Assembly: GCF_000517545.1 (NCBI RefSeq)
Contig: NZ_BAIV01000024.1
Location: 1-64,000 of the forward strand
Reading direction: 5' to 3'
From: Bacteroides reticulotermitis JCM 10512
Lineage (GTDB): Bacteria; Bacteroidota; Bacteroidia; Bacteroidales; Bacteroidaceae
Length of the DNA: 64,000 nt
The position numbers and the translations under genes were made by a program. Below, in pieces: positions 4,182 to 63,567 of the stretch (position 1 is its first letter; every line of letters begins with the position of its first letter). Under the pieces are notes generated by a model that was not told where the DNA came from, searched no databases, and was given only the letters and a program-made list of their open reading frames with translations.

Positions 4182-7100
4182 ATGATTATTAAACATGAAG
4201 ACATTCTCAAGCAAAAGTCTCGCAAGGTGACGGAGACTCTTTCCCCGAAAGGGGTAAAACGTATGGTCTGTTTGGCAATCGTTCTGTGCATTTGTTCCAT
4301 GCTGAATGTGCAGGCAACGGTCCAACAGCAACGAATCACAGTTTCTCTGAAAAACGTGACTATAGAAGCGGCAATGAGCAAAGTGGAGGCTTTATTGCAT
4401 CAAAGTTTTTTTGTTAACCGGGAATCGGTCAATATGAACCGCACCGTGAATCTGGAATTGAACAATGCTACTTTGGAGGTCTTGGTTGAGAAGCTGTTTG
4501 GCAAAGGCTTCAAATACGAATTGGTGAATAATATTATTGTTATCTCTAAAAGGAAGGAAGAAAGCAGTGCTTTGCAGCAGGCTCAACAGCCCAAACAAGC
4601 TCAGGAAACGGTGGTTACGGGAGTTGTGCTCGAAGAGTCGGGCGGGATGGTACCGGGAGCCTCTGTTATGCTCAAAGGGACAACAATTGGTGTGGCAACC
4701 GATATAAACGGTAACTTTTCCTTGAAAGTACCGGCTTCTCATAAGGGGAAGAAAATAATTGTATCGGTTTCGTTTGTGGGTATGAAGAAAGTCGAAAGGG
4801 AATACACCGGCAAACCGTTGACTTTTAAATTGGAAGAGGATATGGCCGTTATTGGCGATGTGGTGGTGAATGGCTACTTCCAACAGGCGAAAAATAGCTT
4901 TACGGGTGCTGCTCGTACCATCTTACAGGAGGATTTGCAGAAGGCGAGTAATCAAAACATACTGACAGCACTTCAGAATATCGACCCTTCTTTTATGAAA
5001 GTCGAAAACAATTTGATGGGTTCTAACCCGAATGTAATACCTGATTTCCAAATTCGAGGATCGAGCAGTATCTCGACCATGGAAAGCTCGTATACCGGTA
5101 ACCCGAATATGCCGGTGTTTATTGTCGACGGCTTTGAGGCGTCGGCAGAGAAGGTGTTTGATATGGACTTACCGGGTGGCTTCTATTACCCTGCTCAAGG
5201 ATGCGGCAGCAACTGCTATTTACGGTTCGCGAGCATCTAATGGTGTGGTTGTAATTACGACCAATGTACCGGCTAAAGGTAAGATCCAGTTGAGCTACAA
5301 TGCAGATGCTACTATCTATATGGCCGATCTGAGCGATTATGATTTATGTAACGCAACAGAAAAGCTGGAGATTGAACGCTTGGCAGGAATGTACACAGCC
5401 CGCGCTGTGGCCGATCAGATTAATCTGGATGAATCGTATAATACGAAATTGAGCAATATACAGAAAGGATATAATACATATTGGTTGGATAAACCGATTG
5501 ACAAATCGGCTATTGCCCAAAAACATTCACTTCGTTTGGATGGGGGGACTGATAATATCCGCTATGCCATGGAAGTGAACTATAGTGATACGCCGGGAGT
5601 TATGAAAGGCTCCGGACGTAAACGTATGGGAGTCGGTATGGATTTGCAGTATATCTATAAGAATATCACATTTAAGAATAGTCTGACGTATTCGGATGTA
5701 TCTGCTGTTGATTCACCTTACGGATCGTATAGCACGTATGGGACGTTAAACCCTTATGTACGTTATAAGAATGATGAGGGTCATTATATTTATAAAGTGG
5801 ATGAGTTTGCTCCAGTGGGTTATGCAACTACTTACCCTTCTTACAACCCCTTGTTTAACACAACACTGCATACTAAAAGTGAAAATGGCTATAGTGACCT
5901 GACTAACAACTTCGGTATTGATTGGACGGTGATGGAAGACTTACGCTTAAAAGGAAGCTTCGCTATTATACGTCAGAATACGGACTCAGATACCTTTAAA
6001 CCGGCTAAACATACGGATTTTGCCAACTATAGTATTGAGGACTTCGACCGTAGAGGTTCTTATGTCGCTTCTAGAGGCGAATCAACGATCTATAATGCTA
6101 ACTTGATTTTGACGTATTTCTGGCAAATGAACAAACATGTCTTAAACAGTAATCTTGGCTGGAACATACAGGAGAATGTCAATAAATCATTTAGCGTACA
6201 GGCAGAAGGATTCCCGAATGAAAAGCTGGACTATATCAGTTTTGCAACTCAATATCAAAAAAACGGGTCACCATCCGGTAGCGAATATACATCGCGCCTA
6301 GTTGGTTTTCTGGGGAATGTGAATTATAGCTATGACGAGAAATATTTGTTAGATCTCTCTTTCCGTGGAGATGCTTCCTCACGCTTTGGCTCAGACAATC
6401 GTTGGGCACCTTTCTGGTCGGTAGGCTTAGGTTGGAATATTCACAATGAGAAATTCTTGAAAAAGGTGGAGTGGATAGACCGCCTGAAGATTAGAGCCTC
6501 TTATGGGCTGACCGGTAGCCAGGATTATAACCCTTATCAGGCGATTACCACGTATCAGTATCTGTCGGGTTCGCGTTATCACAATTCGGTTGGAGCATCG
6601 GTAATAGCTATGGGGAATGAAGATCTGGGATGGCAGCGGACTACGCAGCAGAACTATGGGCTTGATTTGGACTTTTGGAAGAATCGGATAACGTTGACTG
6701 CAAACTTTTATGTGAAAGACTCGAAGGATGTGTTGACGGCCGTCACACTTCCCCCTTCTTTGGGCTTTGGTTCGTATATGGACAATCTGGGAGAGGTGCA
6801 GAACGTGGGTTATGAGGTTGATCTTCGTGTAGCGATTCTTGAGAATAAGCGTGATCGTTTGTTCTGGAGTGTCAACGCAACTGTTCTACATAATACAAAT
6901 AAACTGAAGAAAATCTCGAATGCACTGAAGGCTTATAACGAAAAGCAGGATAACGAGTCATCAGCCGGTTCTAACCGTCCGAAAGTACGCTATATTGAGG
7001 GACAATCAATGAACTCTATCTGGGTGAATGAGTCTTTGGGAATCGACCAGCCACGGGAAATGAACTCTTTCGCGCGAAGAATGGAGATGTCGTTTCTGAC

Positions 7101-7607
7101 TGGAGCCCCGATAATTACGTGATCGGAGGATGTGCTGACCCTACAATACAAGGTACATTCGGCACAAATTTCTCATGGAAAGGATTCCAGTTGAATATGA
7201 TTTTCAGGTATAGTTGTGGCGGGTATATTTATAACCAAACCTTGGTCGATAAAGTGCAAGATGCCGACTTACGCTACAATGTAGACCGTCGTGTATTCCT
7301 CGATCGTTGGCAGAAACCGGGTGACGAAGTGATGTTCGCTAAGTTTGGTGACGGATTCGGAGCTAATGTGGGTCATTCAACCAAGCCAACTTCCCGTTTT
7401 ATTGAGAAGAATAACTATTTGGATCTTGCGACTCTGAATATTGCGTATGATATTAATATGCCGTGGATGAAACGTATCGGATTGAAACGTCTGAAGGCTA
7501 CGTTCTACATGAATGATGTGTTTCATATCTCAACTGTAAAACAAGAGAGAGGAATAAGCTATCCATATGCTCGCAATTTCAGTGTCGGCTTGCAAGCCCG
7601 TTTCTAA
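4182..7607 (+). CDS. SusC/RagA-type TonB-dependent receptor with STN domain, two frameshifts
   Basis: Outer-membrane TonB-dependent transporter, about 1142 residues once two frameshifts are repaired. Domains in order: signal segment to about residue 45; STN signalling domain about 50-122; carboxypeptidase-regulatory-like domain about 140-220; plug with the family motif S-I-T-L-L-K-D-A-A-A-T-A-I-Y-G-S-R-A; then the beta barrel to a terminal G-L-Q-A-R-F. The reading frame breaks at about 5172, where D-L-x-R-V loses two bases (likely AAC reduced to C). It breaks again at 7048, where CCCA appears as CCA (D-P-A-T-G-N-E). The net loss is three bases and the frame is restored. With SusD it should import an unidentified oligomer. 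The STN domain ties it to the upstream sigma/FecR pair. Sequencing error is more likely than decay. Confidence 0.88.
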
Positions 7608-15645: not shown

Positions 15646-16981
15646 TTAGATAATGCCTTGCCCGATCATAGCTTGAGCTACTTTCATGAATCCGGCTATA
15701 TTGGCACCTTTCACATAATTGATGTATCCATCGGGCTCTGTACCGTATTTGGCGCATTGTGCGTGGATACCGTGCATAATTGTGTGAAGCTTTTCATCTA
15801 CTTCGGCGGCAACCCAGCTCAGGTGCATGGCATTCTGAGACATTTCGAGGCCGGAAGTCGCAACGCCACCCGCATTGACTGCTTTACCCGGCGCATACAT
15901 TACTTTATGTTCGATAAAGAGGTCGATAGCTTCAGGGGTACATCCCATATTGGATATCTCTCCAACACAGAGAACGTTGTTCTTTATCAGGCTTTCGGCA
16001 TCTTTTCCATCCAACTCGTTTTGTGTGGCGCAAGGCAGAGCGATATCGGCCACTACTTCCCAAGGATGTTTGTTGGCTACGAAGGTTGCTTCCGGATATT
16101 TCTCGGCATAAGGGCAACAATATCATTGCCCGAAGCCCGAAGTTCGAGCATATAGTCGATTTTTTCACCGCTAACGCCTTTCGGATCGTAGATATATCCG
16201 TCGGGACCGGAAATCGTAATGACCTTGGCACCTAGTTCAGTTGCTTTGGTCGCAGCTCCCCAAGCGACATTGCCGAAGCCGGAGAGGGCAACTGTCTTTC
16301 CTTTAATATCAATGCCTTTTGCTTGCAACATCTGATTGACAAAGTAGAGTCCTCCGAAACCGGTTGCTTCCGGACGGATAAGGGAACCGCCAAATTCCAA
16401 TCCCTTGCCTGTGAAGGTACCTGTGAATTCGCGTGTGAGCTTTTTGTACATACCGAACATATAACCGACTTCACGGCCACCTACTCCGATATCACCGGCA
16501 GGAATGTCCATGTCCGGTCCCAAATGACGCCACAGTTCGAGCATGAACGCTTGGCAGAAACGCATAATTTCAGCTTCGCTCTTACCACGGGGTGAGAAGT
16601 CGGAACCACCTTTTCCACCACCCATGGTAGGGTAGTCAATGCATTCTTGAATGTTTGCTCGAAACCGAGGAATTTAAGAATGGACAGGTTGACTGATGCG
16701 TGAAGACGGATACCGCCTTTGTAGGGGCCAATAGCGTTGTTGAACTGAACCCGATACCCAAGGTTGGTTTGTACTTCGCCTCGGTCGTCTACCCAGGTTA
16801 CCCGAAAGGTGAAGATGCGGTCGGGTTCTACCAGTCTTTCAATGATCTTGGCTTTCTCAAACTCAGGATGTTGATTGTATATGTCTTCGATTGAAAGAAG
16901 TACTTCTTTTACGGCTTGAAGGTACTCAGATTCGCCGGGGTGCTTAGCCTCTAGAGAGGTCATAATCTTTTGGATGTTCAT
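15646..16981 (-). CDS. gdhB: glutamate dehydrogenase, NAD-type, two frameshifts
   Basis: Hexameric glutamate dehydrogenase of about 445 residues after repair; it interconverts glutamate with 2-oxoglutarate plus ammonia. Family motifs include N-A-I-G-P-Y-K-G-G-I-R, the catalytic-Lys region P-M-G-G-G-K-G-G-S-D-F, and P-A-G-D-I-G-V-G-G-R-E. The nucleotide-binding loop reads G-F-G-N-V-A-W-G-A-A with T-I-S-G-P-D-G-Y-I-Y-D after the second strand, as in NAD-specific clostridial GDH, suggesting a catabolic NAD enzyme. Single-base losses break the frame at about 16626-16627 (GGG to GG before the M-G-G-G-K motif) and at 16112-16114 (GGGG to GGG). Both repair cleanly to family sequence. A -7 box is at 17033-17040. 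The gdhB symbol follows Bacteroides usage. Confidence 0.88.
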
Positions 16982-22545: not shown

Positions 22546-23880
22546 TTATAAGACTCCTTGTGCCATCATCGCTTTGGCAACCTTCATAAATCCGGCTACG
22601 TTAGCTCCTTTTACATAGTTTACATATCCGTCAGCTTCCGTACCGTACTGTACACAAGCTTCGTGGATGCTCTTCATGATGCTTTTCAGTTTATCGTCTA
22701 CTTCTTCGGAACTCCAGCTTAGTTTGATTGAGTTCTGAGTCATTTCCAAACCGGATACCGATACACCACCGGCATTAGCTGCCTTACCCGGTGCATACAA
22801 TATTTTTGCTTCCTGGAAGATACGAACCGCTTCCGGAGTAGAAGGCATATTAGCACCTTCGGCAACAGCGATCACGCCATTAGCAACCAATTTCTTGGCA
22901 TCGTCACCATTAATCTCGTTCTGAGTAGCAGAAGGCAGAGCGATATCTCCCTTTTCTCCCCATGGGCGAGCTCCTTCTACGTATTTGCATCCGTATGTTT
23001 CGGCATATTCGCGGATACGACCCCGATACAAGCCTTTCAGTTCCATGATGTAATTCAGTTTTTCGCGGTCGATACCTGCGGGATCATAGATGTAACCATC
23101 CGAATCGGAGCAAGTTACTACTTTACCACCTAGTTCGAGAACTTTCTCAATGGTGTATTGAGCAACGTTACCGGAACCGGAAACCAGACAGGTTTTACCT
23201 TTCAGGTCGGTACCTTTAGTTTGCAGCATTTCCATCAGGAAGTAGATGTTACCGTAACCGGTTGCTTCCGGACGAATGAGTGAGCCTCCGAATTCGCGCC
23301 CTTTACCAGTGAATGTTCCGGTAAATTCATGAGTCAGCTTCTTATACATACCGAACATGAAGCCTACTTCACGACCTCCTACACCAATATCACCGGCTGG
23401 AACGTCTGTCTCAGGACCGATATGACGCCACAGTTCCAACATGAACGACTGTACAAAACGCATTACTTCAGCGTTTGATTTGCCACGTGGAGAGAAGTCC
23501 GATCCTCCTTTACCACCACCCATAGGCAGTGTGGTGAGTGAGTTTTTGAATGTTTGTTCAAAAGCCAAGAACTTCAGAATTGAAAGATTTACGGATGAGT
23601 GGAAACGGATACCGCCTTTGTAAGGGCCGATCGCGTTGTTGTGCTGTATACGGTAACCCATGTTTGTTTGGATATTGCCTTTATCGTCCATCCAAGTAAC
23701 ACGGAACTGGTATACTCTATCGGGAATACACAAACGTTCAATCAGGTTTGCTTTATCAAATTCCGGGTGTTTGTTGTATTCTTCTTCAATGGTAGAAAGA
23801 ACTTCTTCCACTGCTTGATGATACTCTGGTTCGTTGGGGAACCGTCTTTTCAAATCGTCTAAGACCTTAGCTGCATTCAT
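22546..23880 (-). CDS. gdhA: glutamate dehydrogenase, NADP-type
   Basis: Intact 444-residue glutamate dehydrogenase paralogous to the gene at 15646. Catalytic motifs are conserved (P-M-G-G-G-K-G-G-S-D-F, P-A-G-D-I-G-V-G-G-R-E). The cofactor loop reads S-G-S-G-N-V-A-Q-Y-T-I-E-K with T-C-S-D-S-D-G after the second strand. This matches the NADP-specific E. coli GdhA pattern and points to the ammonium-assimilating enzyme. A -7 box TACTTTTG (23940-23947) lies 60 bp upstream. The hairpin at 22484-22518 terminates it. The pairing of NAD- and NADP-type enzymes around the peptidase and fusion gene resembles the arrangement I recall in Bacteroides genomes. Confidence 0.95.
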   Translation of the reverse strand: MNAAKVLDDLKRRFPNEPEYHQAVEEVLSTIEEEYNKHPEFDKANLIERLCIPDRVYQFRVTWMDDKGNIQTNMGYRIQHNNAIGPYKGGIRFHSSVNLSILKFLAFEQTFKNSLTTLPMGGGKGGSDFSPRGKSNAEVMRFVQSFMLELWRHIGPETDVPAGDIGVGGREVGFMFGMYKKLTHEFTGTFTGKGREFGGSLIRPEATGYGNIYFLMEMLQTKGTDLKGKTCLVSGSGNVAQYTIEKVLELGGKVVTCSDSDGYIYDPAGIDREKLNYIMELKGLYRGRIREYAETYGCKYVEGARPWGEKGDIALPSATQNEINGDDAKKLVANGVIAVAEGANMPSTPEAVRIFQEAKILYAPGKAANAGGVSVSGLEMTQNSIKLSWSSEEVDDKLKSIMKSIHEACVQYGTEADGYVNYVKGANVAGFMKVAKAMMAQGVL

Positions 23881-51606: not shown

Positions 51607-52466
51607 TTACTCTACCGGTATGTAAATTTCCGTAAGTAAGTCTTCGGGTGCAGTATCACGCGGATTGTTCAGATAGCGTTCGGCACTGGCCTCATCGCGT
51701 AGTGTGCATTCCATTTCCGGCAGATATTTCCCATAAATCGTATCATACACCGCTTGCAGATTTTCATACGTACCTTTATAGAGAAATATAGCATAGCGTC
51801 CTGCGGGCAGCTGTTTGTATCCAATCTCACCTTTAGGCGTAGCGTTACAGGGTAGCACCATGCAAACATCCGTGCGCAGTTTGTCGGTAGGGGTCACTTT
51901 CGGGTCATCGTGGTAGATACATAAAGGGCTACATTCTCCCATCGGAAGTTCCTGTTCCATGACGAATTGATACAACCGTCCCCAAGTGCCGGCATAATCA
52001 TTTAGTTTGTAGTCGCCCGTCAAGCGGATATAAATCAAGTCTCTTGCAGGGACGTTTCTAACTTCTTTTTCTAGTTTCAAGTCCGGTCTGATAATTGCTG
52101 GTCTCATAATTACAAAGTTTTTATTGTTTCTATATGCTAACGGTGAAATACCATAAAATTGTCTGAATACTTTCGACAAGGATGAGGGAGAGGAGTAACC
52201 GATGCGATACGCGATATCGGCTATCGGAAGGTCGGAGTAGCGCAACAAACGTGCAGCTGCTTCAGTCCGCGTCCGGACAATAAACGTTCCGACAGGTTCA
52301 CCCAGAAATGCTTCATGATTCGGTGGAAGTAGAAAGGAGAGAAGTTTGAGATGCCGGCCAGCGATTTCAAATCGATTTCTTCTCCCAAGTGCAAGTTGAT
52401 ATAATCCACCACCTTATTCACGCATTTCTGATACTCTTCCTGGGTTGTCTTTTTTTGTTTCATCAT
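51607..52466 (-). CDS. AraC regulator with GyrI-like effector domain, one frameshift
   Basis: About 286 residues after repair. The N-terminal AraC DNA-binding domain (about 10-110) has N-F-S-P-F-Y-F-H-R-I-M-K and I-A-Y-R-I-G-Y-S-S-P-S-S-L-S-K-V-F. A GyrI-like small-molecule-binding domain (about 125-285) starts V-R-N-V-P-A-R-D-L-I-Y-I-R and contains G-R-Y-A-I-F-L-Y-K-G-T-Y. This Rob/SbmC-like layout often senses hydrophobic compounds. The frame is broken at about 52306-52308, where an A-run on the + strand has lost one base (restored F-L-G-E-P-V-G-T-F-I-V-R-T-R). A -7 box TATATTTG is at 52490-52497. Confidence 0.87.
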
Positions 52467-54946: not shown

Positions 54947-55503
54947 TTACTTTGTTGCGTATTGTTTTCTTCCTTCGGTATACATATCATTGCCCATGGA
55001 GTCGATGGCTACAATGACGGGCAGTTCCTTGACCACCAATCGCCGAACAGCTTCCGTTCCTAAATCTTCATAGGCAATGACTTCGGCACTTTCTACACAT
55101 TTACCCATCAGGCAGCGGCACCACCGATAGCGGCAAAGTAGATGCCTCCATGTTTTACGATGGAATTCTTTACTTCCGTATCTCTCAAACCTTTGCCTAT
55201 CATGACCTTGAGTCCTTTATCCATAAGCGCAGGCGCATATAAATCCATGCGGCCGCTAGTTGTCGGACCGACCGATCCGATTGGCTTACCCGGTTTGGGC
55301 GGACAAGGCCCGGCATAATATATGGCGGCTCCCTGAAAGTCGAAAGGCATTGGCATACCCGCTTTCAATGATTCGCACATCCGTTTGTGAGCTGCATCCC
55401 GTCCGGTATACACAACTCCTGAAAGATAGACCATTTCGCCTGCTTTCAGCGATTTGATTGTGTCGTCGTGGAAAGGAGATGTTATTATTTTCTTTTCATT
55501 CAT
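54947..55503 (-). CDS. class I hydro-lyase beta subunit (probable mesaconase), one frameshift
   Basis: About 185 residues after repair; the C-terminal-type subunit of class I (iron-sulfur) fumarase/tartrate dehydratase/mesaconase. The motif G-P-C-P-P-K-P-G-K-P-I-G-S-V-G-P-T-T-S-G-R-M-D is diagnostic. The frame fails at 55111-55112, where GGG appears as GG. One added base gives A-A-L-M-G-K-C-V-E-S and continues through I-D-S-M-G-N-D-M-Y to TAA at 54947-54949. In this operon the enzyme most likely hydrates mesaconate to (S)-citramalate rather than acting as a housekeeping fumarase. Confidence 0.85.
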
Positions 55504-55514
55504 ACCTGTCTGAT

Positions 55515-56360
55515 TTATAAATAGCCTTCAGCGTGGCGAGTGGCATGACAGCCAATATTCACCGACACCGGAAGTCCGGCTATGTGTGTGGCATACGTTA
55601 ATATATTTACACTTAGAGCTGTGGTCGTTCCTCCGAAACCTGCCGGACCAATACCTAGCTTGTTGATGGAACCGAGCAATTCGTCTTCCAATTCTGCCAA
55701 AGCAGGGTTCGTATTCTTTTCATGGATAGGGCGGAGCAACGCTTTTTTGCTTAACAAGGCACTCTTTTCCATCGTACCACCTATCCCAACACCTACGATA
55801 ATGGGTGGGCAAGGGTTTGATCCCGCAGCGGATATTGTTTGGATGACGAAGTCTTTCACGCCTTCCAGCCCTTGGCTTGGCTTAAGCATGCACAACCGGC
55901 TCATGTTTTCACTTCCGAAGCCTTTCGGAGCGACCACAATATGCAAGTCTTTTCCCGGAACGATTTCATAATGAATCACCGCCGGTGTGTTGTCTTGGGT
56001 ATTGATCCGATCGATCGGATCTCTGACAACTGATTTACGTAAGTAGCCTTTCTCATACCCACGGCGTACACCTTCATTGATTGCATCTTCTATACTTCCT
56101 CCCGCAATGTGTACGTCCTGTCCTATGGTGACAAAGACAACAGTCAGGCCGGTGTCTTGGCAGATCGGGCTGTTTTCCTCACGAGCGATTGTCGCGTTTT
56201 CGAGCAAGGTATGCAGGATATCTTTGCCTAATGTCGATTTCTCAACAGGCTGTGAGGTTTTCAAGGCATCGCAAATATCGCCGGGAAGTTGGCAATTGGC
56301 TTCGATGCAGAGCTTTTCGACCAGATTTGTAATCCGATCGATTGTTATTTCTTTGATCAT
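55515..56360 (-). CDS. class I hydro-lyase alpha subunit (probable mesaconase)
   Basis: A 281-residue iron-sulfur subunit. The three cluster cysteines are seen in S-P-I-C-Q-D-T-G, G-S-N-P-C-P-P and N-I-G-C-H-A-T-R-H. The G-V-G-I-G-G-T segment is also conserved. Class I fumarase, tartrate dehydratase and mesaconase cannot be separated by motif. The position directly behind glutamate mutase and methylaspartate ammonia-lyase argues for mesaconate hydration, the next step of the methylaspartate pathway. The 11-bp gap to the beta subunit supports a heterodimer. It would be oxygen-sensitive and cytoplasmic. Confidence 0.88.
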   Translation of the reverse strand: MIKEITIDRITNLVEKLCIEANCQLPGDICDALKTSQPVEKSTLGKDILHTLLENATIAREENSPICQDTGLTVVFVTIGQDVHIAGGSIEDAINEGVRRGYEKGYLRKSVVRDPIDRINTQDNTPAVIHYEIVPGKDLHIVVAPKGFGSENMSRLCMLKPSQGLEGVKDFVIQTISAAGSNPCPPIIVGVGIGGTMEKSALLSKKALLRPIHEKNTNPALAELEDELLGSINKLGIGPAGFGGTTTALSVNILTYATHIAGLPVSVNIGCHATRHAEGYL

Positions 56361-56365
56361 AATTA

Positions 56366-57306
56366 TCAGTCTCCTCTTTTCAGAAAATGAACCGTATTTA
56401 AATTTGATATATCGATGTTATCATCTTCACTCAGTAAACCGACAATGCAGTAAGTGTCTGTTCGCGGGTCAGGAATAAACCGTTTGATAATGGTGAATTT
56501 CTTGACCTCCGATGTATTGTGAATGTGAAGTCTGGGGAAACTACACTCCACCTTTCTATCACCGATCATGATGTGGTCTTCATCGCAGCAACATACGGTC
56601 AGCTCTTTGGCGACCTCTTCTCTTACTCGATCGGTGAGCTTATAAAAGTCGAGCTCAAATTTCTCTCGCGAATGAATAATGAATCCATTCCGCATATCCG
56701 AAGCGAATACCTGTTTGCGATCAACTCCGAATTCAGTAGACAGAATAAGGAGTGTGATGTCCTCAAGGGTATGCGCTACTTTACGGAAATGCAGTGATTG
56801 GGAAACTATTTCGTAGATACTTTGTGGCAGAGGCCCGAATATATTCGGTCGAGTAACGATGATCTCTTCGCCGATGCGACAATCATATCGGCGTTGACGC
56901 CCAGTGCCGGATAGAGGAGGTCGAAATGCTCGATAACGACCCTGCGTCCATGTGCCAGTACTGTCTTAACGAACTCTACCACTTCATACATCTGAGTGAA
57001 GGCGATTTGAAACCGCATATCGATGTGATAGGTTGTCGTGTCCTGGATATTATCAAACAGGTCACGTACCTGCATAATTTTGCGCGAACTGAGCATGTCA
57101 TCGTCATTGGACAACTCTAACCCCGGAAACATACCTCGGATTAGAGAAGATTTGCCTGAACCTGCGTCACCCACTACCCCGATCAAACGATCGGTGTAGG
57201 TGAGGTGGCGTTGTGAGATTTGCTCACCCAGAAACAAAAGTCTCTCTCTGCCGTGTGGCGCAAAATATTGAGAGATAACCGAATATTCCCGTATCAAGTC
57301 GCGCAT
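56366..57306 (-). CDS. P-loop ATP-binding protein of the methylaspartate operon, one frameshift
   Basis: About 313 residues after repair. A Walker A motif G-D-A-G-S-G-K-S-S lies near residues 46-54, and V-V-I-E-H-F-D could be the Walker B strand. The C-terminal part has a C-C-C-D-E-D cluster and a H-I-H-N-T-S-E segment. The frame closes early because of a one-base loss at about 56844 (A-run on the coding strand). Repair gives N-I-F-G-P-L-P-Q-S-I-Y and joins the downstream 109 residues. The gene lies between DUF4387 (3 bp gap) and the mesaconase alpha gene (5 bp gap). I do not recognise a characterised family. A kinase- or chaperone-like role for the mutase/mesaconase system is speculation. 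Confidence 0.7.
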
Positions 57307-57309
57307 AGC

Positions 57310-57627
57310 TTATAGTTTAAATGTGAAACCTAGTAACGGTGAGTGTTGTTGCGCGCCGTACACATCTGTCTCGCCTAACGCTCCCGAAGGAATTGGGCGT
57401 ACAATCGTGATCTTAACTGCTTTGGCCGGGTCGAAATAGACTAGCTTGATGATGTCCGATTCCGGAATGTTGTACAACGAAGCGAATACCTTCTCGTTGA
57501 TAGCGTTGGCAGCTTTCACTTTATTGAACATTTCAAACTCCTTGAATATGACATCGAAAGTCAGTTCGTAAGGCCCTGAGTTCTTGCTTCTGATAACCGA
57601 AGCTACGTCTCTTAAGTTATATTCCAT
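57310..57627 (-). CDS. DUF4387 protein
   Basis: A 105-residue protein of the DUF4387 family: start L-R-D-V-A-S-V-I-R-S-K-N-S-G-P-Y, middle L-Y-N-I-P-E-S-D-I, then V-Y-F-D-P-A-K-A-V-K-I-T and the ending D-V-Y-G-A-Q-Q-H-S-P-L-L. Members are usually next to, or fused with, AtuA/DUF1446 proteins, as here (17 bp gap). No biochemical activity is known to me. Cytoplasmic, no cofactor motif visible. Confidence 0.88.
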   Translation of the reverse strand: MEYNLRDVASVIRSKNSGPYELTFDVIFKEFEMFNKVKAANAINEKVFASLYNIPESDIIKLVYFDPAKAVKITIVRPIPSGALGETDVYGAQQHSPLLGFTFKL

Positions 57628-57644
57628 ATTTGTTCCTCCTCTTT

Positions 57645-59021
57645 TTAATGGCTACCGTTAGTAAACTGCATATAGGTGATGGGGAAGTATTCCGACGGAT
57701 CGGCTACTCGCATCAAGTGATATATGCTAAATTCGTATACTTCTCCTACTTTACAATCGGAAGGGGAGAAGGGGAAAGCCAGATTACCCGCAGTCGATAT
57801 GCGGCCTTCGTAACCAAAGTGAAGCATGGTGCTGCGGGCAAAACCGCAGATTGTATCAGCCTGTTCCTGAGTCGGTGCTACTGCTTCGATGACCAAAGCC
57901 AGTTCGTGTCCGATACGTTGATCGATGCCGGGGAAGAATCCCATCACACCATTCTTGCCATATATTTTAAAGTCGAGGAAGAAGTCTTTGATTCCGTAGC
58001 TTTCGAAGTTGTTTTGTACCCGTTCTTTCACGCTTTGCACCACTTCGTCGATCTTTTCAATCATAACGGGGTCTTTCACGCCTGCGATGGATATCGTACG
58101 GTAACCAACTTTCTTAACTCCTTCCAACTTAACAAAGTACTCCTCTGTGGGTACAAAGGTACTGCCTGTCACCTTCACCGTGTTTTCCGTGAGTTGGGTG
58201 AATTGAGTGTTGTGCAGATTGATTGCACCTCCGGGACCGGGTAGCATATACGGATTGGTTTTCTCGTATAATGTGTGCGCAGCTACCGAAAGTGTTGTGC
58301 ATTTGCGTAAAGGAGACAATGGTTCTAACACAAAGTCATCTTGATGTAGATAGCCCATCATGCAATCGCTACCACTTCCGGGGATAGCGGCAATAGCTGC
58401 ACATTCCAGAATCTTGCCTAAATGAATAGCCAAGCCCTTGTTGAATCCTTCTTTGATAGCTAAAGCGGCAAAGACCGAAGGGTCGTAAGCACGTCCTGCG
58501 AGAATGACGTTAGCACCTCCTTCTAAAGCCTTGATGAAGGGATCTTCTCCAATCTGAGCAACAATGCGGACACAGTTGTCTACATCTTCGGCCGTAATTT
58601 GCTTAGCGGGGAATAGGGGTTCGATATCACCACCTGCCAACTTCTCTTTAATCAGTTCTTTGTCCAGTTCCGATTGTATGACTGCCAGTTTGAAAGAGAG
58701 TTTCTTTGCGGCTGCAATCTGTTGGATGATCTCTAGGTTGAAAGCAACATGAGGATATCCACCACATCCGCCGGCAGTTCCGATTATAACCGGGATACCG
58801 GCTTCCAGTGCTGCGGGGATCATGATCTCCAAGTCTCTTTTGACTGAATTGAAGTCCGTAAATGATTCGCCTGCTCCTAAGTAGTAAGGCCCCGGATCAG
58901 TAGATCCGGCATCTACTGCTATGACGTGCGGCTTCCGTTTCATCCCTTCCGTAAAAGATTCCATCGGAAACCCATAGCCCAGAATAGCAGTAGGTGAGAG
59001 TATTCTTAATTCTTGCATCAT
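57645..59021 (-). CDS. AtuA/DUF1446 family protein
   Basis: A 458-residue protein of the acyclic-terpene-utilisation AtuA (DUF1446) family. Signatures are I-A-V-D-A-G-S-T-D-P-G-P, I-I-G-T-A-G-G-C-G-G, A-G-R-A-Y-D-P-S-V-F-A-A and the long G-x-x-G-P-G-G-A-I-N-L segment. In Pseudomonas AtuA belongs to a geranyl-CoA pathway but has no assigned step. Here it lies between methylaspartate ammonia-lyase and DUF4387 within the glutamate-fermentation operon. A role in handling methylaspartate, mesaconate, citramalate or their CoA esters is inference. Start at 59021 (M-M-Q-E-L) or one codon later. Confidence 0.87.
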   Translation of the reverse strand: MMQELRILSPTAILGYGFPMESFTEGMKRKPHVIAVDAGSTDPGPYYLGAGESFTDFNSVKRDLEIMIPAALEAGIPVIIGTAGGCGGYPHVAFNLEIIQQIAAAKKLSFKLAVIQSELDKELIKEKLAGGDIEPLFPAKQITAEDVDNCVRIVAQIGEDPFIKALEGGANVILAGRAYDPSVFAALAIKEGFNKGLAIHLGKILECAAIAAIPGSGSDCMMGYLHQDDFVLEPLSPLRKCTTLSVAAHTLYEKTNPYMLPGPGGAINLHNTQFTQLTENTVKVTGSTFVPTEEYFVKLEGVKKVGYRTISIAGVKDPVMIEKIDEVVQSVKERVQNNFESYGIKDFFLDFKIYGKNGVMGFFPGIDQRIGHELALVIEAVAPTQEQADTICGFARSTMLHFGYEGRISTAGNLAFPFSPSDCKVGEVYEFSIYHLMRVADPSEYFPITYMQFTNGSH

Positions 59022-59033
59022 ATCATCTTAACT

Positions 59034-60277
59034 TTATAATTTATCTTTTAATGCCAATATACGTTGCATCTCGTTGAAGGCGATCATATACCCTTCGTCT
59101 ACTCCCATACCCGGTTTGGCAAGACATTGTAGGGGAGAGGTAGCCATTGCGATGTGAGCGCATACTTCAGCCGAACGAGAAGTCTCGTTGCATGTTCCAC
59201 CCAGATAAGCTTCCATAGCATTGTTTTTGCAGAAGAGAACTGCTTCAATGGAGTTGTTTATGCCTCCTAAATCGGGTGTCTTGATCTGAATCATATGACC
59301 GGCTTTGTGCAGGGTGAAGTCTTTAATATCTTCTAGCGTATTGCACCATTCGTCGGCTACGATCTCTGTTTTAGAGCCTTTCTTTTCCAATAGTTCGCGC
59401 AGCGTACGCAACGCTTCTATCTGCGACTTTTTATCACCCATATCTACCGGGCCTTCAATGCGGAGTTTGAAAGGAGCAGCCTTCTTTTCCAACTGACTCA
59501 TGTATTCGGCTATCTTTTCGAGATCATTGTTGAATACGATTCCCAGTGTACCGTATACGTCGATATGCATGATTGGATTATAACGATCGTTTGTTCTAAA
59601 CTGGAGAATGCGATCGCGTAGCCATTCCACATAGGCCGCTAGCTTTTCCCCTTGGAGTCCGGTTTTCTCCTCCGGATGATTAAACAAGGCATGCGGCAGA
59701 ACTTCCGCTTCTTTCATAATCATCTTATCGGCATTGTTGTAACGGTCGTCACCCGACTGGGTAAAGATCGCAATGGAGTGGTTGGACACCTGCGTGCCGT
59801 ACTCTTCGGCAATGATTTGTGCCATGAGCTTATGCTTGCTTTTTGCTACCGCATCCAAACAGGCTTGCGTTACCCCGTAGCGGATAGCCGTGTGATAGTG
59901 TTTACCGGTCGATGGATTTTTAGCCTGATCGACGAGAGCGGCCAACTCCTTGAAAGAGTTAATTTCTTTACCTTTATATAAAGGAGCGATCTCTTTCTCG
60001 ATTAATGGAATAAAATCTTTGGCGAGGAACAACGGGTCGCGTCCGCCGGCTCCTGAATATTGCACAGCAGCACAATCGCCGTGCGCAATGGCTCCGTTGT
60101 CAAGTATGAACAAGACAGAGATTGATTCGCCTGCCTGACGGACGGCTGTGAAGCCTCAGTCATTGGTTCGCCTATATAAAATGCACCGTCGTGTCCGGCG
60201 CCTGCCTTAATCGCTTTCTGATCGTCAAAGTAGAAACCTGTCTTACCTTGCGCACATACAACATCTATAATCTTCAT
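59034..60277 (-). CDS. mal: methylaspartate ammonia-lyase, one frameshift
   Basis: About 414 residues after repair, the normal length of the family. It deaminates (2S,3S)-3-methylaspartate to mesaconate. Diagnostic are A-G-A-G-H-D-G-A-F, the metal/substrate region A-H-G-D-C-A-A-V-Q-Y-S-G-A-G-G-R-D, V-A-D-E-W-C-N-T, Q-I-K-T-P-D-L-G-G with the catalytic lysine, and L-G-G-T-C-N-E-T. A single-base loss at about 60154-60155 (GGG to GG on the coding strand) breaks E-G-F-T-A-V-R-Q-A-G-E-S-I-S-V-L-F-I-L. The enolase-superfamily enzyme needs Mg2+ and is cytoplasmic. It follows glmE by 24 bp. Confidence 0.93.
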
Positions 60278-60301
60278 AGCTTTTGTTTTTAAGTTTACAT
60301 A

Positions 60302-61759
60302 TTAATGGGGCCTGCCTACTAAGAACCCTTTACCTATCGCATATACATCGTCTACTACCATCTGGAAGTTGATCGGACGTTTTTCAAAGTCGGCTCTTTC
60401 CTGCAGCTTCTGTTTATGGAAGTCTTTTAAATCCTGCGTCAACGGAATGTTACCCGCATCCAGCAAGCGAACTGCTCCCAGATTGTCTCGGGCAGGCATT
60501 ACCTTACCTGCATTGTAGCGGCTTGGTGCAAACGGTACATCGAGCACCCCGGCTTGAAACGCTGCAATTGTTCCCAACGCATAATCGCCCTTACCGAGTT
60601 CTTCGATTTTGTCGAGGATGCATTCCATCTCCCGCATGATAATATCACTTTCCATAATAACCGCCGGAATATCGATGAAGCTTTGGTCTTTCAGCATGGA
60701 AGTAAGCTGTTTGGTTGCCTTTAAGCCGGCAGCATTTGCTTCTTTAGTCGGTACCCCCATCGCCTCGTGTGGGGTCTTGACAATTACTTTAGTTGCTTTG
60801 GCGAGTACGGCAGCGGCCGCTCCCCATGAGATAACAGCAAATGATTTAGCTTCATCTTGTGGGAAACCTCCCATCCATTGGTGGAATACGGTTGTCACCC
60901 GAACATCTGAAAAACCGAACTTATCGAGGTATTTGCGGGTAACATACTCCAGCGAACGAATAGCTGCTACGTCCTGTATCAGATTTCCGCATTGTCCGTA
61001 ACCAACGGTGAGATCTTTCACGCCTTGTGTGGCTGCCAGCAAAGATTCTACCACTGCTACCGCATTGGAGATACAGGGCGGAACAAGGGTTCCGGTTAGT
61101 GGGCCGAAAGGTTCGCGGTTAATCGAAATACCGGCTTCCTCGTATAGGCCGATCAATCGGTCGGTGTACTGCCAGTGGGCAATCGTTTTTTCTAAAGAAT
61201 GATTCTTAGAATAAGGAATGTTGTAAGAAATGCCTCCTCCTTCATAAGAGGTAAAGCCACCGGCTATGGTGATTTCGGTGAGCAAGCGGGCGTCCGGAGT
61301 TCCATGACGTACTTGTACAGGCTTTTTTAAAACCGAAGTTACTTCACGACAAATGTCCACTCCATAGTTCACAGCCGGAAATCCGTTCAACATCGAACGT
61401 CCGGTCTCTTTACTCTTTGCGATTCCGTCTTCTGCTTCTTTGTAACGATTCAGACGGGTATAGCTGTCGATTGTGGTAGGCAGTAAGTCGGCCTCTCCCT
61501 CAGTCTCCAGGTATTGCAACAACTGGATATGCTCAGACGGTAGGGCGACTCCCGCCCGTGGCTGAATGAGTGTCACCTTCTCGGCTTTCGCTTTTGATAG
61601 TTTTTCACCGAAACGTTTTTCAGGCAAGATAGCCCGTTGATATTCTACGGCCTCGTCAAAGTTTACTGCTTTGCCGGTAGGCCATTGTTGAAGTACCTCT
61701 TCACGTTCTTTGAAGAAAGCATCCTTAGACAGTTTTTCATTTTTTAGAGTCATATTCAC
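60302..61759 (-). CDS. glmE: glutamate mutase (methylaspartate mutase) epsilon subunit
   Basis: A 485-residue large subunit of the adenosylcobalamin-dependent glutamate mutase, which rearranges L-glutamate to threo-3-methylaspartate. Length equals clostridial GlmE. Characteristic are Q-P-R-A-G-V-A-L-P, the glutamate-binding V-R-H-G-T-P-D-A-R and [11 protein letters not shown], and [12 protein letters not shown]. It works with GlmS, which supplies B12 binding, and is 6 bp downstream of glmL. ATG at 61759 or 61753. Requires anaerobic radical chemistry, fitting an anaerobic host. Confidence 0.95.
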
Positions 61760-61765
61760 TTGGTT

Positions 61766-63151
61766 TTATTGTATTAGTTTAATTTCTTCTTTCATAAAAT
61801 GCAGGGCGAGCTCAGGATCAACTGTACTGAGCAGTCCCATCGATGCGAAAATATATTTCTTATCCAGATAATATCGTGGCTTTTTGGGTTTCATCGAATG
61901 AAACTTCTGCGGATTGTATTTGGCTCCGTCCAATATAGCTTCGGGGTGTTTGCTGTTGACCAGGCTACCTCCGATGCCGATTATACGGTCTACATCGGAT
62001 AAGTCTTTTCCGGTCATGACATAGATTTCACCCATAGGCGTGAACGAACGTTCGATAGAACCGCAATGTCGTTCGACAGCAATCTCGATTGCTTTCTTTG
62101 CCAGGAGTTCTTCTAACTGCTCCTCGGCACTGCCTGCCGCAGCTAGAGCGGAAGGATGCGCTATGCAGTGGGTCAACCAGTGCTGTATTTCTTCCTGCGA
62201 AAGTCCGCTTTCGGCTTCCAAGACTTGCGTTCCTGCCTCTTCGGACAATGCTTTCAAACTGTAACGCATGCCTAAGTCACCTTCTACCGTCCGTTTGCTG
62301 AACGGCTCGGGCAAACCTTTTATCAAAACGTTCTCTAATGTCGGGCTTCCTTCGGCCATCGAGTAAATATCGGTAGTTGCTCCTCCCAGGTCCGCGGCCA
62401 TGAAATCGCCTATTCCCGGAGTCTTCGCTGTGCCTTTACTGAGTAATTCGCATGCGTTCATAACTGCGAGCGGAGTTGGAATTATATCATTGAATGACAT
62501 CTTTTGTATGCCCGACAAGCCTTTCGCATCAATTATCTTCCGAATAAACACCTCTCGGATGCTTTGTTTGGCCGATGCTATGTTGAGCTTGTTGAATGTG
62601 GGCATTACATTGTCTGTCAGTACGTAATCTTTGCCTGAGTGAGCGAATATTTCCTCCAACTCGTGAGACGCGCTTTTATTGCCTGCTATTACTACAGTGA
62701 AATCCCAATCGATGGCACATAGTCGGCGGGCATTGGCAATGATTACCTCTTTATTTCCTCCGTCGGTACCTCCGCAAAGCAAAACAAGATCCGGCCGGAT
62801 AGCGTAGATCTCATCTTGTTCTTGCTTGGAAATCTCAAAGGCATAGGTTTTTATTACTTTGGCTCCTGCACTGGAAGCAGCCATGCGTGCTGCTTTTGCC
62901 GTTAACTCCGGCACTAGGCCCAGAGCAACCATCTTTAAACCTCCTCCGGCACTGCTGCAACAAAGTAATTGGTCGTATCGGAATGTACCGATGCTAGCTT
63001 CCAACTGCGCCAAAGCTGTCCGGAAACCATGGATAATATCTGTATCGATGGTGGTAAACGCATTGGCGGTACCCAGAATGGTTGCGTGTTGCGTATCAAT
63101 GGCCGTGAGCTTCGTATATGTACTGCCGAAGTCCGCAGTCAGAATTTTCAT
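61766..63151 (-). CDS. glmL: glutamate mutase-associated protein MutL/GlmL
   Basis: A 461-residue protein of the ASKHA (actin/Hsp70-like ATPase) fold. Visible are the phosphate-1 loop A-D-F-G-S-T-Y-T-K at the start, D-L-G-G-A-T-T-D in the second half and G-I-G-G-S-L-V near the adenosine site. GlmL lies between the two glutamate mutase subunits in most operons and is thought to protect or reactivate the cobalamin enzyme, though this is not firmly shown. Spacing of 2 bp from glmS and 6 bp from glmE indicates tight co-translation. Confidence 0.93.
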   Translation of the reverse strand: MKILTADFGSTYTKLTAIDTQHATILGTANAFTTIDTDIIHGFRTALAQLEASIGTFRYDQLLCCSSAGGGLKMVALGLVPELTAKAARMAASSAGAKVIKTYAFEISKQEQDEIYAIRPDLVLLCGGTDGGNKEVIIANARRLCAIDWDFTVVIAGNKSASHELEEIFAHSGKDYVLTDNVMPTFNKLNIASAKQSIREVFIRKIIDAKGLSGIQKMSFNDIIPTPLAVMNACELLSKGTAKTPGIGDFMAADLGGATTDIYSMAEGSPTLENVLIKGLPEPFSKRTVEGDLGMRYSLKALSEEAGTQVLEAESGLSQEEIQHWLTHCIAHPSALAAAGSAEEQLEELLAKKAIEIAVERHCGSIERSFTPMGEIYVMTGKDLSDVDRIIGIGGSLVNSKHPEAILDGAKYNPQKFHSMKPKKPRYYLDKKYIFASMGLLSTVDPELALHFMKEEIKLIQ

Positions 63152-63153
63152 AA

Positions 63154-63567
63154 TCAGGATAGAGCTAATATTTCTTTTAAATCGGCTATAGTTGTTTCGA
63201 TAGCTGTTCCGGGTGGATATGCTTTGGTGAATCCCATTGCTAGAAAGCGTTTCTCTACATCAACGAAGTCTTGCTTACCAACTACTAGGTTGCCACCAAC
63301 TAAAAGTGGAATGCTTTTTAAGCCCGCTTCGTCGCATTTCTCGCGAAGGCCGTTGCAGTCAATCTCGCCATGTCCATACAGCGAAGAAACGAGAATCACG
63401 TCTGCGTTTGTTTCGATTGCAGCTGCAATGTATTCTTCTTGTGAAACCATCACACCGAGATTTACAACATTGAAACCTTCTTTCTCTAATGCGTATGTGA
63501 TAATTTTATTACCTACCGCATGCACGTCGGCACCAATTACGCCTGTTACAATCGTTTTCTTTTCCAT
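63154..63567 (-). CDS. glmS: glutamate mutase sigma (B12-binding) subunit
   Basis: A 137-residue cobalamin-binding subunit, the exact length of clostridial MutS/GlmS. The base-off/His-on motif D-x-H-x-x-G is present as [11 protein letters not shown] near residues 13-23. The conserved S-S-L-Y-G-H-G and V-G-G-N-L-V-V-G strands complete the Rossmann-like fold. It is the first gene of the methylaspartate operon, preceded by a -7 box TACATTTG (63705-63712). No cobalamin riboswitch is visible upstream in 63568-64000. Confidence 0.95.

Follow-up and report, generated by a model that had tools for sequence, protein, structure and literature searches.

The stretch of DNA analysed here, referred to as the window, comprises 64,000 nucleotides of Bacteroides reticulotermitis JCM 10512 (RefSeq assembly GCF_000517545.1, contig NZ_BAIV01000024.1, positions 1 to 64,000). 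On its minus strand, an operon-like run of genes at 54953–63567 consists of glmS, glmL and glmE of glutamate mutase, mal for methylaspartate ammonia-lyase (MAL), a gene of the AtuA/DUF1446 family, a DUF4387 gene, a P-loop gene, and the genes for the alpha and beta subunits of mesaconase. The three genes that the original prediction had placed between mal and the two-subunit mesaconase genes do lie there, and the coordinates give gaps of 12 bp between mal and AtuA, 17 bp between AtuA and DUF4387, 3 bp between DUF4387 and the P-loop gene, and 5 bp between the P-loop gene and mesaconase alpha. The AtuA and DUF4387 genes are intact, whereas the P-loop gene lacks a single continuous reading frame: it is frameshifted, and its family profile follows it through two frames, at 56875–57306 and 56387–56875. 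The explanation favoured as a whole, and held with high confidence, is that AtuA and DUF4387 encode CmlAB, a two-subunit citramalate lyase that closes the methylaspartate route of glutamate breakdown.

Each of the two intact window proteins has one strong match in the PDB. The AtuA protein aligns with chain 9erq_A over query residues 3–443 of 458 (phmmer E 3.6e-150), and the DUF4387 protein aligns with 9erq_B over residues 2–103 of 105 (E 2.3e-28). The CmlAB chains are deposited as PDB entries 9erq/9evf; 9erq_A is labelled as an AtuA family protein, "Citramalate lyase, subunit A (cmlA)", and 9erq_B as a DUF4387 protein, "Citramalate lyase, subunit B (cmlB)". CmlA of Escherichia coli scores 966.8 bits over 456/456 residues of the solved chain, which makes it a very close relative, and its gene lies in the run glmS-glmL-glmE-mal-cmlA-cmlB-symporter-fumarase-cobO. 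The genome of the window holds one AtuA gene. DUF4387 may be the detached C-terminal domain of a long AtuA protein. The homology, the gene order, the exclusion between lyases and the co-occurrence with GlmE come from sequence and comparison; the activity of CmlAB, the splitting of (S)-citramalate into pyruvate and acetate, is taken from the molecule names given by the PDB depositors, and the window CmlAB would act on the same substrate. A 2015 study (PMC4682846, in the portion available) described what becomes of citramalate as unclear and noted a DUF1446 gene downstream of mal in enterobacteria and Dictyoglomus thermophilum.

In the proposed pathway, GlmS and GlmE would convert glutamate into 3-methylaspartate, with GlmL keeping the mutase active. 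MAL would then yield mesaconate, mesaconase would hydrate it to (S)-citramalate, and CmlAB would cleave this into pyruvate and acetate, filling the role that CitDEF, from different protein families, is thought to fill in clostridial clusters. The P-loop protein would be a separate thing, a TsaE-like P-loop domain with an AlaX-like domain, tied to GlmE and not to one kind of lyase, which probably serves the mutase or senses amino acids of the pathway.

Table 1. Features of the glutamate mutase run in the window.
Feature	Coordinates	Strand	Evidence
glmS, glutamate (methylaspartate) mutase subunit S	63154..63567	-	NCBIfam PRK02261.1 210 bits, cut-off 110
glmL, mutase accessory protein	61766..63151	-	NF040745.1 624 bits, cut-off 475
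glmE, mutase subunit E	60302..61759	-	TIGR01503.1 750.5 bits, cut-off 390.1
mal, methylaspartate ammonia-lyase (MAL), two frames 60002-60277 + 59034-60113	59034..60277	-	TIGR01502.1 482.5 bits, large piece
cmlA (very probable), AtuA/DUF1446 family, 458 aa, intact	57645..59021	-	PF07287 76.7 bits, cut-off 22.8; phmmer 9erq_A
cmlB (very probable), DUF4387, 105 aa, intact	57310..57627	-	PF14330 140 bits, cut-off 27; phmmer 9erq_B
P-loop gene (PL), N-terminal piece	56806..57306	-	family profile 243.8 bits at 56875-57306; signal stops near 56875
PL, C-terminal piece, other frame, AlaX/SAD-like domain	56366..56875	-	family profile 196.4 bits at 56387-56875
mesaconase (class I fumarase type) alpha subunit	55515..56360	-	PF05681 394.6 bits
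mesaconase beta subunit, two frames: 55108-55503 + 57-aa piece	54953..55503	-	PF05683 133.6 bits

Were CmlAB the lyase, it would be expected to stand in for CitDEF, and this was checked independently in 80 loci fetched by MAL regardless of their neighbours (the best 80 of at least 560 relatives). The loci were typed with profiles made from open reading frame clusters of the same loci and run on six-frame translations, L001–L006 being left out as short duplicates; the labels citD, citE and citF were assigned by eye, with CitF confirmed by PF04223 in the genomes of 11/11 cit-type loci searched. The lyase genes were cmlAB in 48 loci and CitDEF in 20, with both in 0 and neither in 12 (Fisher p 6e-11; the rows are not independent, and the Fisher tests used here ignore kinship). 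For the 12 loci with no lyase gene, the genome carries cmlA elsewhere in 4 cases, CitF elsewhere in 7 and neither in 1.

The same exclusion is seen at genome level, for which 50 of the 80 MAL loci were taken and 49 genomes searched (that of L036 being left out): of these 49, 28 have cmlA only, 18 have CitF only, two (G511 and G512) have both and one (G542) has neither; exactly one kind of lyase is present in 46 of the 49. CitF was found in 20 of these genomes. CmlA was searched in 25 of them, the other 24 carrying cmlA in the locus itself, and was found in 6, four of which lack CitF. In the genome of the window, no CitF scored above the cut-off, the best reaching 24.5 bits against 27 over profile positions 312–403 of 466 only, and here cmlAB lies within the methylaspartate cluster.

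The order glmS-L-E-mal-cmlA-cmlB-PL-mesA-mesB repeats in loci of Bacteroidota and of Treponema (L048, L090), a Synergistaceae locus (L049) having the same order from glmL onward; because it recurs in these groups, the operon order is more than chance. Close to the window the cluster is rare: MAL was found in 1/296 genomes of the phylum of the window, namely its own, and in 4/201 genomes of its family. Genome G309 (L007), of that family, has cmlAB, with the P-loop gene and mesaconase absent in the 19 kb read. In a tree of CmlA, in which several end branches are long, the window protein falls inside a set of MAL-linked proteins (22 rows, 95/95), with those of Bacteroides sp. 51 and Parabacteroides sp. 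as its nearest neighbours, and the E. coli, Klebsiella and Neorhizobium rows branch without resolution at the base of a 34-row set that contains all MAL-linked rows. A scan of viral_contigs with AtuA gave 32 pattern matches and no relative. Separately, three loci (L041, L042 and L044) carry a second pair of mesaconase-type genes, divergently placed upstream of glmS. In the accessible part of PMC10434189, the mal and AtuA-annotated genes of P. intermedia (PIOMA14_II_0010 to 0012) appear in an iron table at 2.2–2.5 fold, beside hmu genes at 21–238 fold, and are thus apparently up under low iron.

Several observations weigh against the favoured explanation. The window CmlA is only 53.5% identical to that of E. 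coli. Among the papers listed from the open-licence PMC literature, none describing the CmlAB enzyme or entries 9ERQ/9EVF was found, the activity resting on depositor names; nor was any found there on DUF4387. In the text available of PMC4682846, no citramalate lyase activity was measured in E. coli ATCC 700728 on citrate, acetate or propionate; the glutamate genes could not be got expressed in that work, and the missing activity therefore counts neither for nor against CmlAB. Two genomes carry both cmlA and CitF and one carries neither, the contig of the latter (L068) ending inside mal. The P-loop gene is missing in two E. coli loci, in Porphyromonas uenonis and in G309.

Furthermore, of 49 plasmid-collection records that matched, nine loci were read, and in seven of these (L011, L012, L014–L018) the AtuA and DUF4387 pair occurs without MAL. 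Six of the seven pairs have genes for fumarase, RraA, MmgE/PrpD or flavin oxidoreductase near them: class I fumarase is in the same run in Klebsiella and Neorhizobium, RraA accompanies the pair in Variovorax, MmgE/PrpD and a flavin oxidoreductase accompany it in Diaphorobacter, and flavin oxidoreductases do so in Methylobacterium and Halomarina. In Terrarubrum, the neighbours are transporter genes. As such pairs stand without MAL, the family is not bound to citramalate and probably serves other substrates too.

Among other accounts of the locus, one would make AtuA and DUF4387 a mesaconase helper, for example in Fe-S assembly, or an alternative hydratase. Mesaconase genes do follow shortly downstream in many loci, and class I fumarase shares the run in two of the MAL-less plasmid loci (as the immediate neighbour in L012, some genes further along in L011). 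However, the PDB labels name the pair a citramalate lyase, and across the 80 loci cmlAB excludes CitDEF and not mesaconase, whose genes are found with both lyase types (29/48 cml loci and 15/20 cit loci); the helper is scarcely credible. A different account, that the pathway is decaying in this strain, takes its support from the splitting of mal, the P-loop gene and mesaconase beta (whose profile matches pieces of 131 aa and 57 aa), and from an E. coli O145 record in which glmL and mal are annotated as frameshifted. The breaks are probably indel errors of the assembly instead, because the synthetases AlaRS (G000:C86:131500-135500, L123) and ThrRS (G000:C67:71000-76000, L124), which the cell needs, are each split into two frames in the same assembly, their C-terminal parts being recognised by SAD profile match and their N-terminal parts by eye. 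A glutamate dehydrogenase gene (16077–16981) and a SusC-like gene (4182–7607) of the window also appear by eye to be split into overlapping frames, and indel errors would cover all of these cases. Decay is accordingly very unlikely and was rejected on the ground that genes essential to the cell are split as well.

Intact relatives of mal are found in the alignment of that gene. The E. coli O145 record is that of strain RM9872 (L010), and both genes have unbroken annotations in L013. A query spanning mal and glmE was matched by 1081 of 5426 complete E. coli genomes. Elsewhere in the window, a second glutamate dehydrogenase gene (22546–23880) is intact, and a gene for an AraC-type regulator with a GyrI-like part (51607–52466) is apparently split in two frames, as judged by eye.

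The P-loop gene follows a pattern of its own. It is present in 38/48 cmlAB loci, 14/20 CitDEF loci and 2/12 loci with neither. Among the 10 cmlAB loci that lack it, six end within ~1.6 kb of the last gene found, and in three (L020, L057 and L078) the gene is absent from the whole genome. It was found in 39/49 genomes with one match each, that of G517 being a short fragment, and in 3/201 genomes of the window's family, compared with MAL in 4. In 299 genomes of Bacillota, the phylum of Petroclostridium G511 (itself included, and picked for having the genes), the P-loop gene was found in 61, MAL in 61 and GlmE in 72. GlmE accompanies the P-loop gene in 59/61 of these genomes and MAL accompanies it in 49/61; where both MAL and the P-loop gene are present, they lie within 20 kb on one contig in 41 of 49. 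Among genomes with GlmE, the presence of the P-loop gene shows no significant dependence on MAL (p 0.26). A pure link to MAL was rejected, as GlmE fits better.

The 12 P-loop genomes that lack MAL bear on the same question, and ten of them have a GlmE gene. In six (L099, L102, L105, L106, L108, L109), the P-loop gene lies ~3–51 bp downstream of a divergent GlmE-like gene, which matches the GlmE profile only from position 107–118 onward (148 in L109). No S or L gene was seen in the stretch fetched around these six genes, the contig of L109 starting inside the E-like gene. In the other genomes with GlmE, that gene is within ~3 kb in three and ~14 kb away in one, and the two MAL-less genomes without GlmE have a broken P-loop gene (G547) and a short contig (G802). 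The next genes in many MAL-less P-loop loci encode RNase PH, RdgB and a YfcE-type phosphodiesterase. The P-loop gene is linked to glutamate mutase subunit E, and not to one lyase kind. At the six divergent loci, a GntR-type regulator precedes the E-like gene in 5/6, and RNase PH and RdgB follow the P-loop gene in 4/6. In locus L116 (G659:C23), the P-loop gene is present twice in tandem, upstream of RNase PH, and MAL lies on another contig.

These distributions separate claims that the original prediction had made for the three genes together. That they belong to the methylaspartate pathway is borne out. The suggested alternative exit from the pathway came near the truth for AtuA and DUF4387, whose relatives are deposited as citramalate lyase. 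A trio acting as a unit was rejected, since the P-loop gene accompanies either lyase and cmlAB also occurs without it. The expected co-occurrence with glutamate mutase is found for the P-loop gene and fails for the AtuA and DUF4387 pair in most of the plasmid loci read. A CoA-ester route was rejected because the operon lacks genes for a CoA-transferase or CoA-lyase, though no search of the genome for them was made; by eye, a CoA-transferase-like gene was seen elsewhere in the genome (L119). Maturation of the iron-sulfur hydro-lyase fits poorly, as a mesaconase gene is missing from the stretch read in 11/38 loci that have both cmlAB and the P-loop gene. An undescribed module is no longer indicated for AtuA and DUF4387, which match a deposited enzyme; the idea survives for the P-loop family, which reaches no curated cut-off.

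Intact P-loop relatives are ~310 aa long, and a 314-aa Prevotella nigrescens gene at the same position is annotated "hypothetical protein". No Pfam or NCBIfam family reached its cut-off in the P-loop copies scanned: in the window piece and two relatives, TsaE scored 17.6–20.4 bits against a cut-off of 26.6 and tRNA_SAD scored 13.5–15.7 bits against 24. No paper on the family was found in the open-licence PMC literature. Structure prediction, a step put forward with the original prediction, gave TsaE-like and AlaX-like folds in a model built from 39 aligned relatives (mean predicted local distance difference test score, pLDDT, 86). Predicted residues 9–159 match TsaE/YjeE in VIA-align (1htw, Z 10.0, root-mean-square deviation (rmsd) 3.5 over 129; 5np9, Z 10.0), with a Foldseek E of 3.7e-5 against 1htw. 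Residues 168–293 match the editing domains of AlaX, ThrRS and AlaRS (9iuw, Z 14.7, rmsd 2.6 over 123). The protein is therefore predicted to be a TsaE-like P-loop domain joined to an AlaX-like domain of tRNA-editing type.

Alignment by hhalign to an AlaX-like protein of the same genome (L122) gave E 5.4e-8 and probability 95; alignments to the AlaRS and ThrRS of that genome were weak (probability 5 and 2). In 57 members, the Walker A residues G46, G49, G51, K52 and S53 are invariant, as are H179, E182 and C255. Of the positions aligned with metal ligands, H179 and C255 are thus kept in 57/57 and H261 in 55/57, and position 183 holds D or E in place of the H of the AlaX-like sequence. Instead of the AlaX metal motifs HxxxH and CxxxH, both present in L122, the family has HxxxD/E, and a C and an H whose spacing is longer by two inserted residues. 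Both sites appear to be maintained for function, with a metal pattern that differs from the AlaX one.

The most likely role of the P-loop protein is to serve glutamate mutase, possibly in a sensing capacity. Tentatively, and as a plausible rather than a probable proposal, it would represent an undescribed family that joins a TsaE-like ATPase to a domain of tRNA-editing type and is dedicated to GlmE, as well as to divergent E-like proteins that have no S gene near them. Such a protein would act either as an ATP-driven caretaker of the mutase or at the tRNA level, where it would clear or sense 3-methylaspartate. A narrower version, an ATP-driven GlmE partner for cofactor loading, gating or repair by analogy with MeaB/MMAA, is possible though doubtful. 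The short spacing downstream of GlmE-like genes in half of the MAL-less genomes and the invariant Walker A residues are consistent with such a partner, and B12 mutases are known to have chaperones that are P-loop G proteins (PMC10481361, in the part available). GlmL, however, is already the reactivator of the mutase according to the available passages of PMC4682846; the fold resembles TsaE, and MeaB-type chaperones are not among the VIA-align and Foldseek matches listed, which does not exclude them; E-like partners that lack a nearby S gene suggest a role beyond B12 catalysis.

Alternatively, the protein could be a trans-editing factor that clears tRNA mischarged with 3-methylaspartate. As the mutase makes this compound, an editing factor would follow the mutase whatever lyase ends the pathway, and the P-loop gene does follow GlmE. 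The C-terminal editing fold and the partly kept metal-ligand positions also argue for this role. Against it stand the absence of the gene from the E. coli loci and from 13/72 GlmE genomes, its position beside divergent E-like genes, around which the DNA fetched shows no S or L gene and methylaspartate need not arise, the ligand pattern unlike that of AlaX, and the weak alignments to AlaRS and ThrRS. Such an editing role is unlikely.

By this analysis, the last step of methylaspartate glutamate breakdown can be assigned, on comparative grounds, for Bacteroidota, Treponema, a Synergistaceae bacterium and many Bacillota. The deposited CmlAB is extended by sequence far beyond E. coli, and the type of lyase can be read from the sequence in all but three of the genomes searched. 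The lyase pair appears to be of a known kind, recognised in Bacteroidota and others through its sequence and through the way it excludes CitDEF. Novelty lies in the P-loop/AlaX-like family, which is not restricted to either lyase; it is a widespread protein family with no curated model, tied to a B12-dependent mutase and directly testable.

Compared with known systems, the window pair is closest to the deposited CmlAB: both of its subunits are matched nearly in full, and in E. coli the close relative of the solved chain has the same gene order and pathway setting around it. The E. coli operon differs in having a symporter, a one-piece fumarase and cobO, where Bacteroidota operons often have the P-loop gene and a two-subunit mesaconase. 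CitDEF, the citramalate lyase of clostridial methylaspartate clusters (PMC4682846, as far as available), occupies the same place in the pathway; it belongs to other Pfam families and shares no locus with cmlAB (0/80). AtuA of acyclic terpene utilisation belongs to the same Pfam family, PF07287, and its assigned step is likewise a cleavage that frees acetate, so that CmlA and AtuA may share their chemistry. It differs in substrate and operon, and the Thauera protein is apparently a single chain of 615 aa (PMC4847356, in the part available), compared with 458 + 105 aa in the window.

For the P-loop protein, MeaB/MMAA, the G-protein chaperone of methylmalonyl-CoA mutase (PMC10481361, in part), offers the likeness of a P-loop NTPase tied to a B12 mutase; the similarity would be one of role only, with no MeaB match among those listed. 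The nearest folds are those of TsaE, the ATPase of t6A synthesis, for the N-terminal half of the P-loop relatives and of the AlaX/ThrRS editing domain for the C-terminal half. The P-loop protein differs from both in that its TsaE and SAD matches lie below the Pfam cut-offs, its two domains are fused in one chain, and its genomic link is to glutamate mutase.

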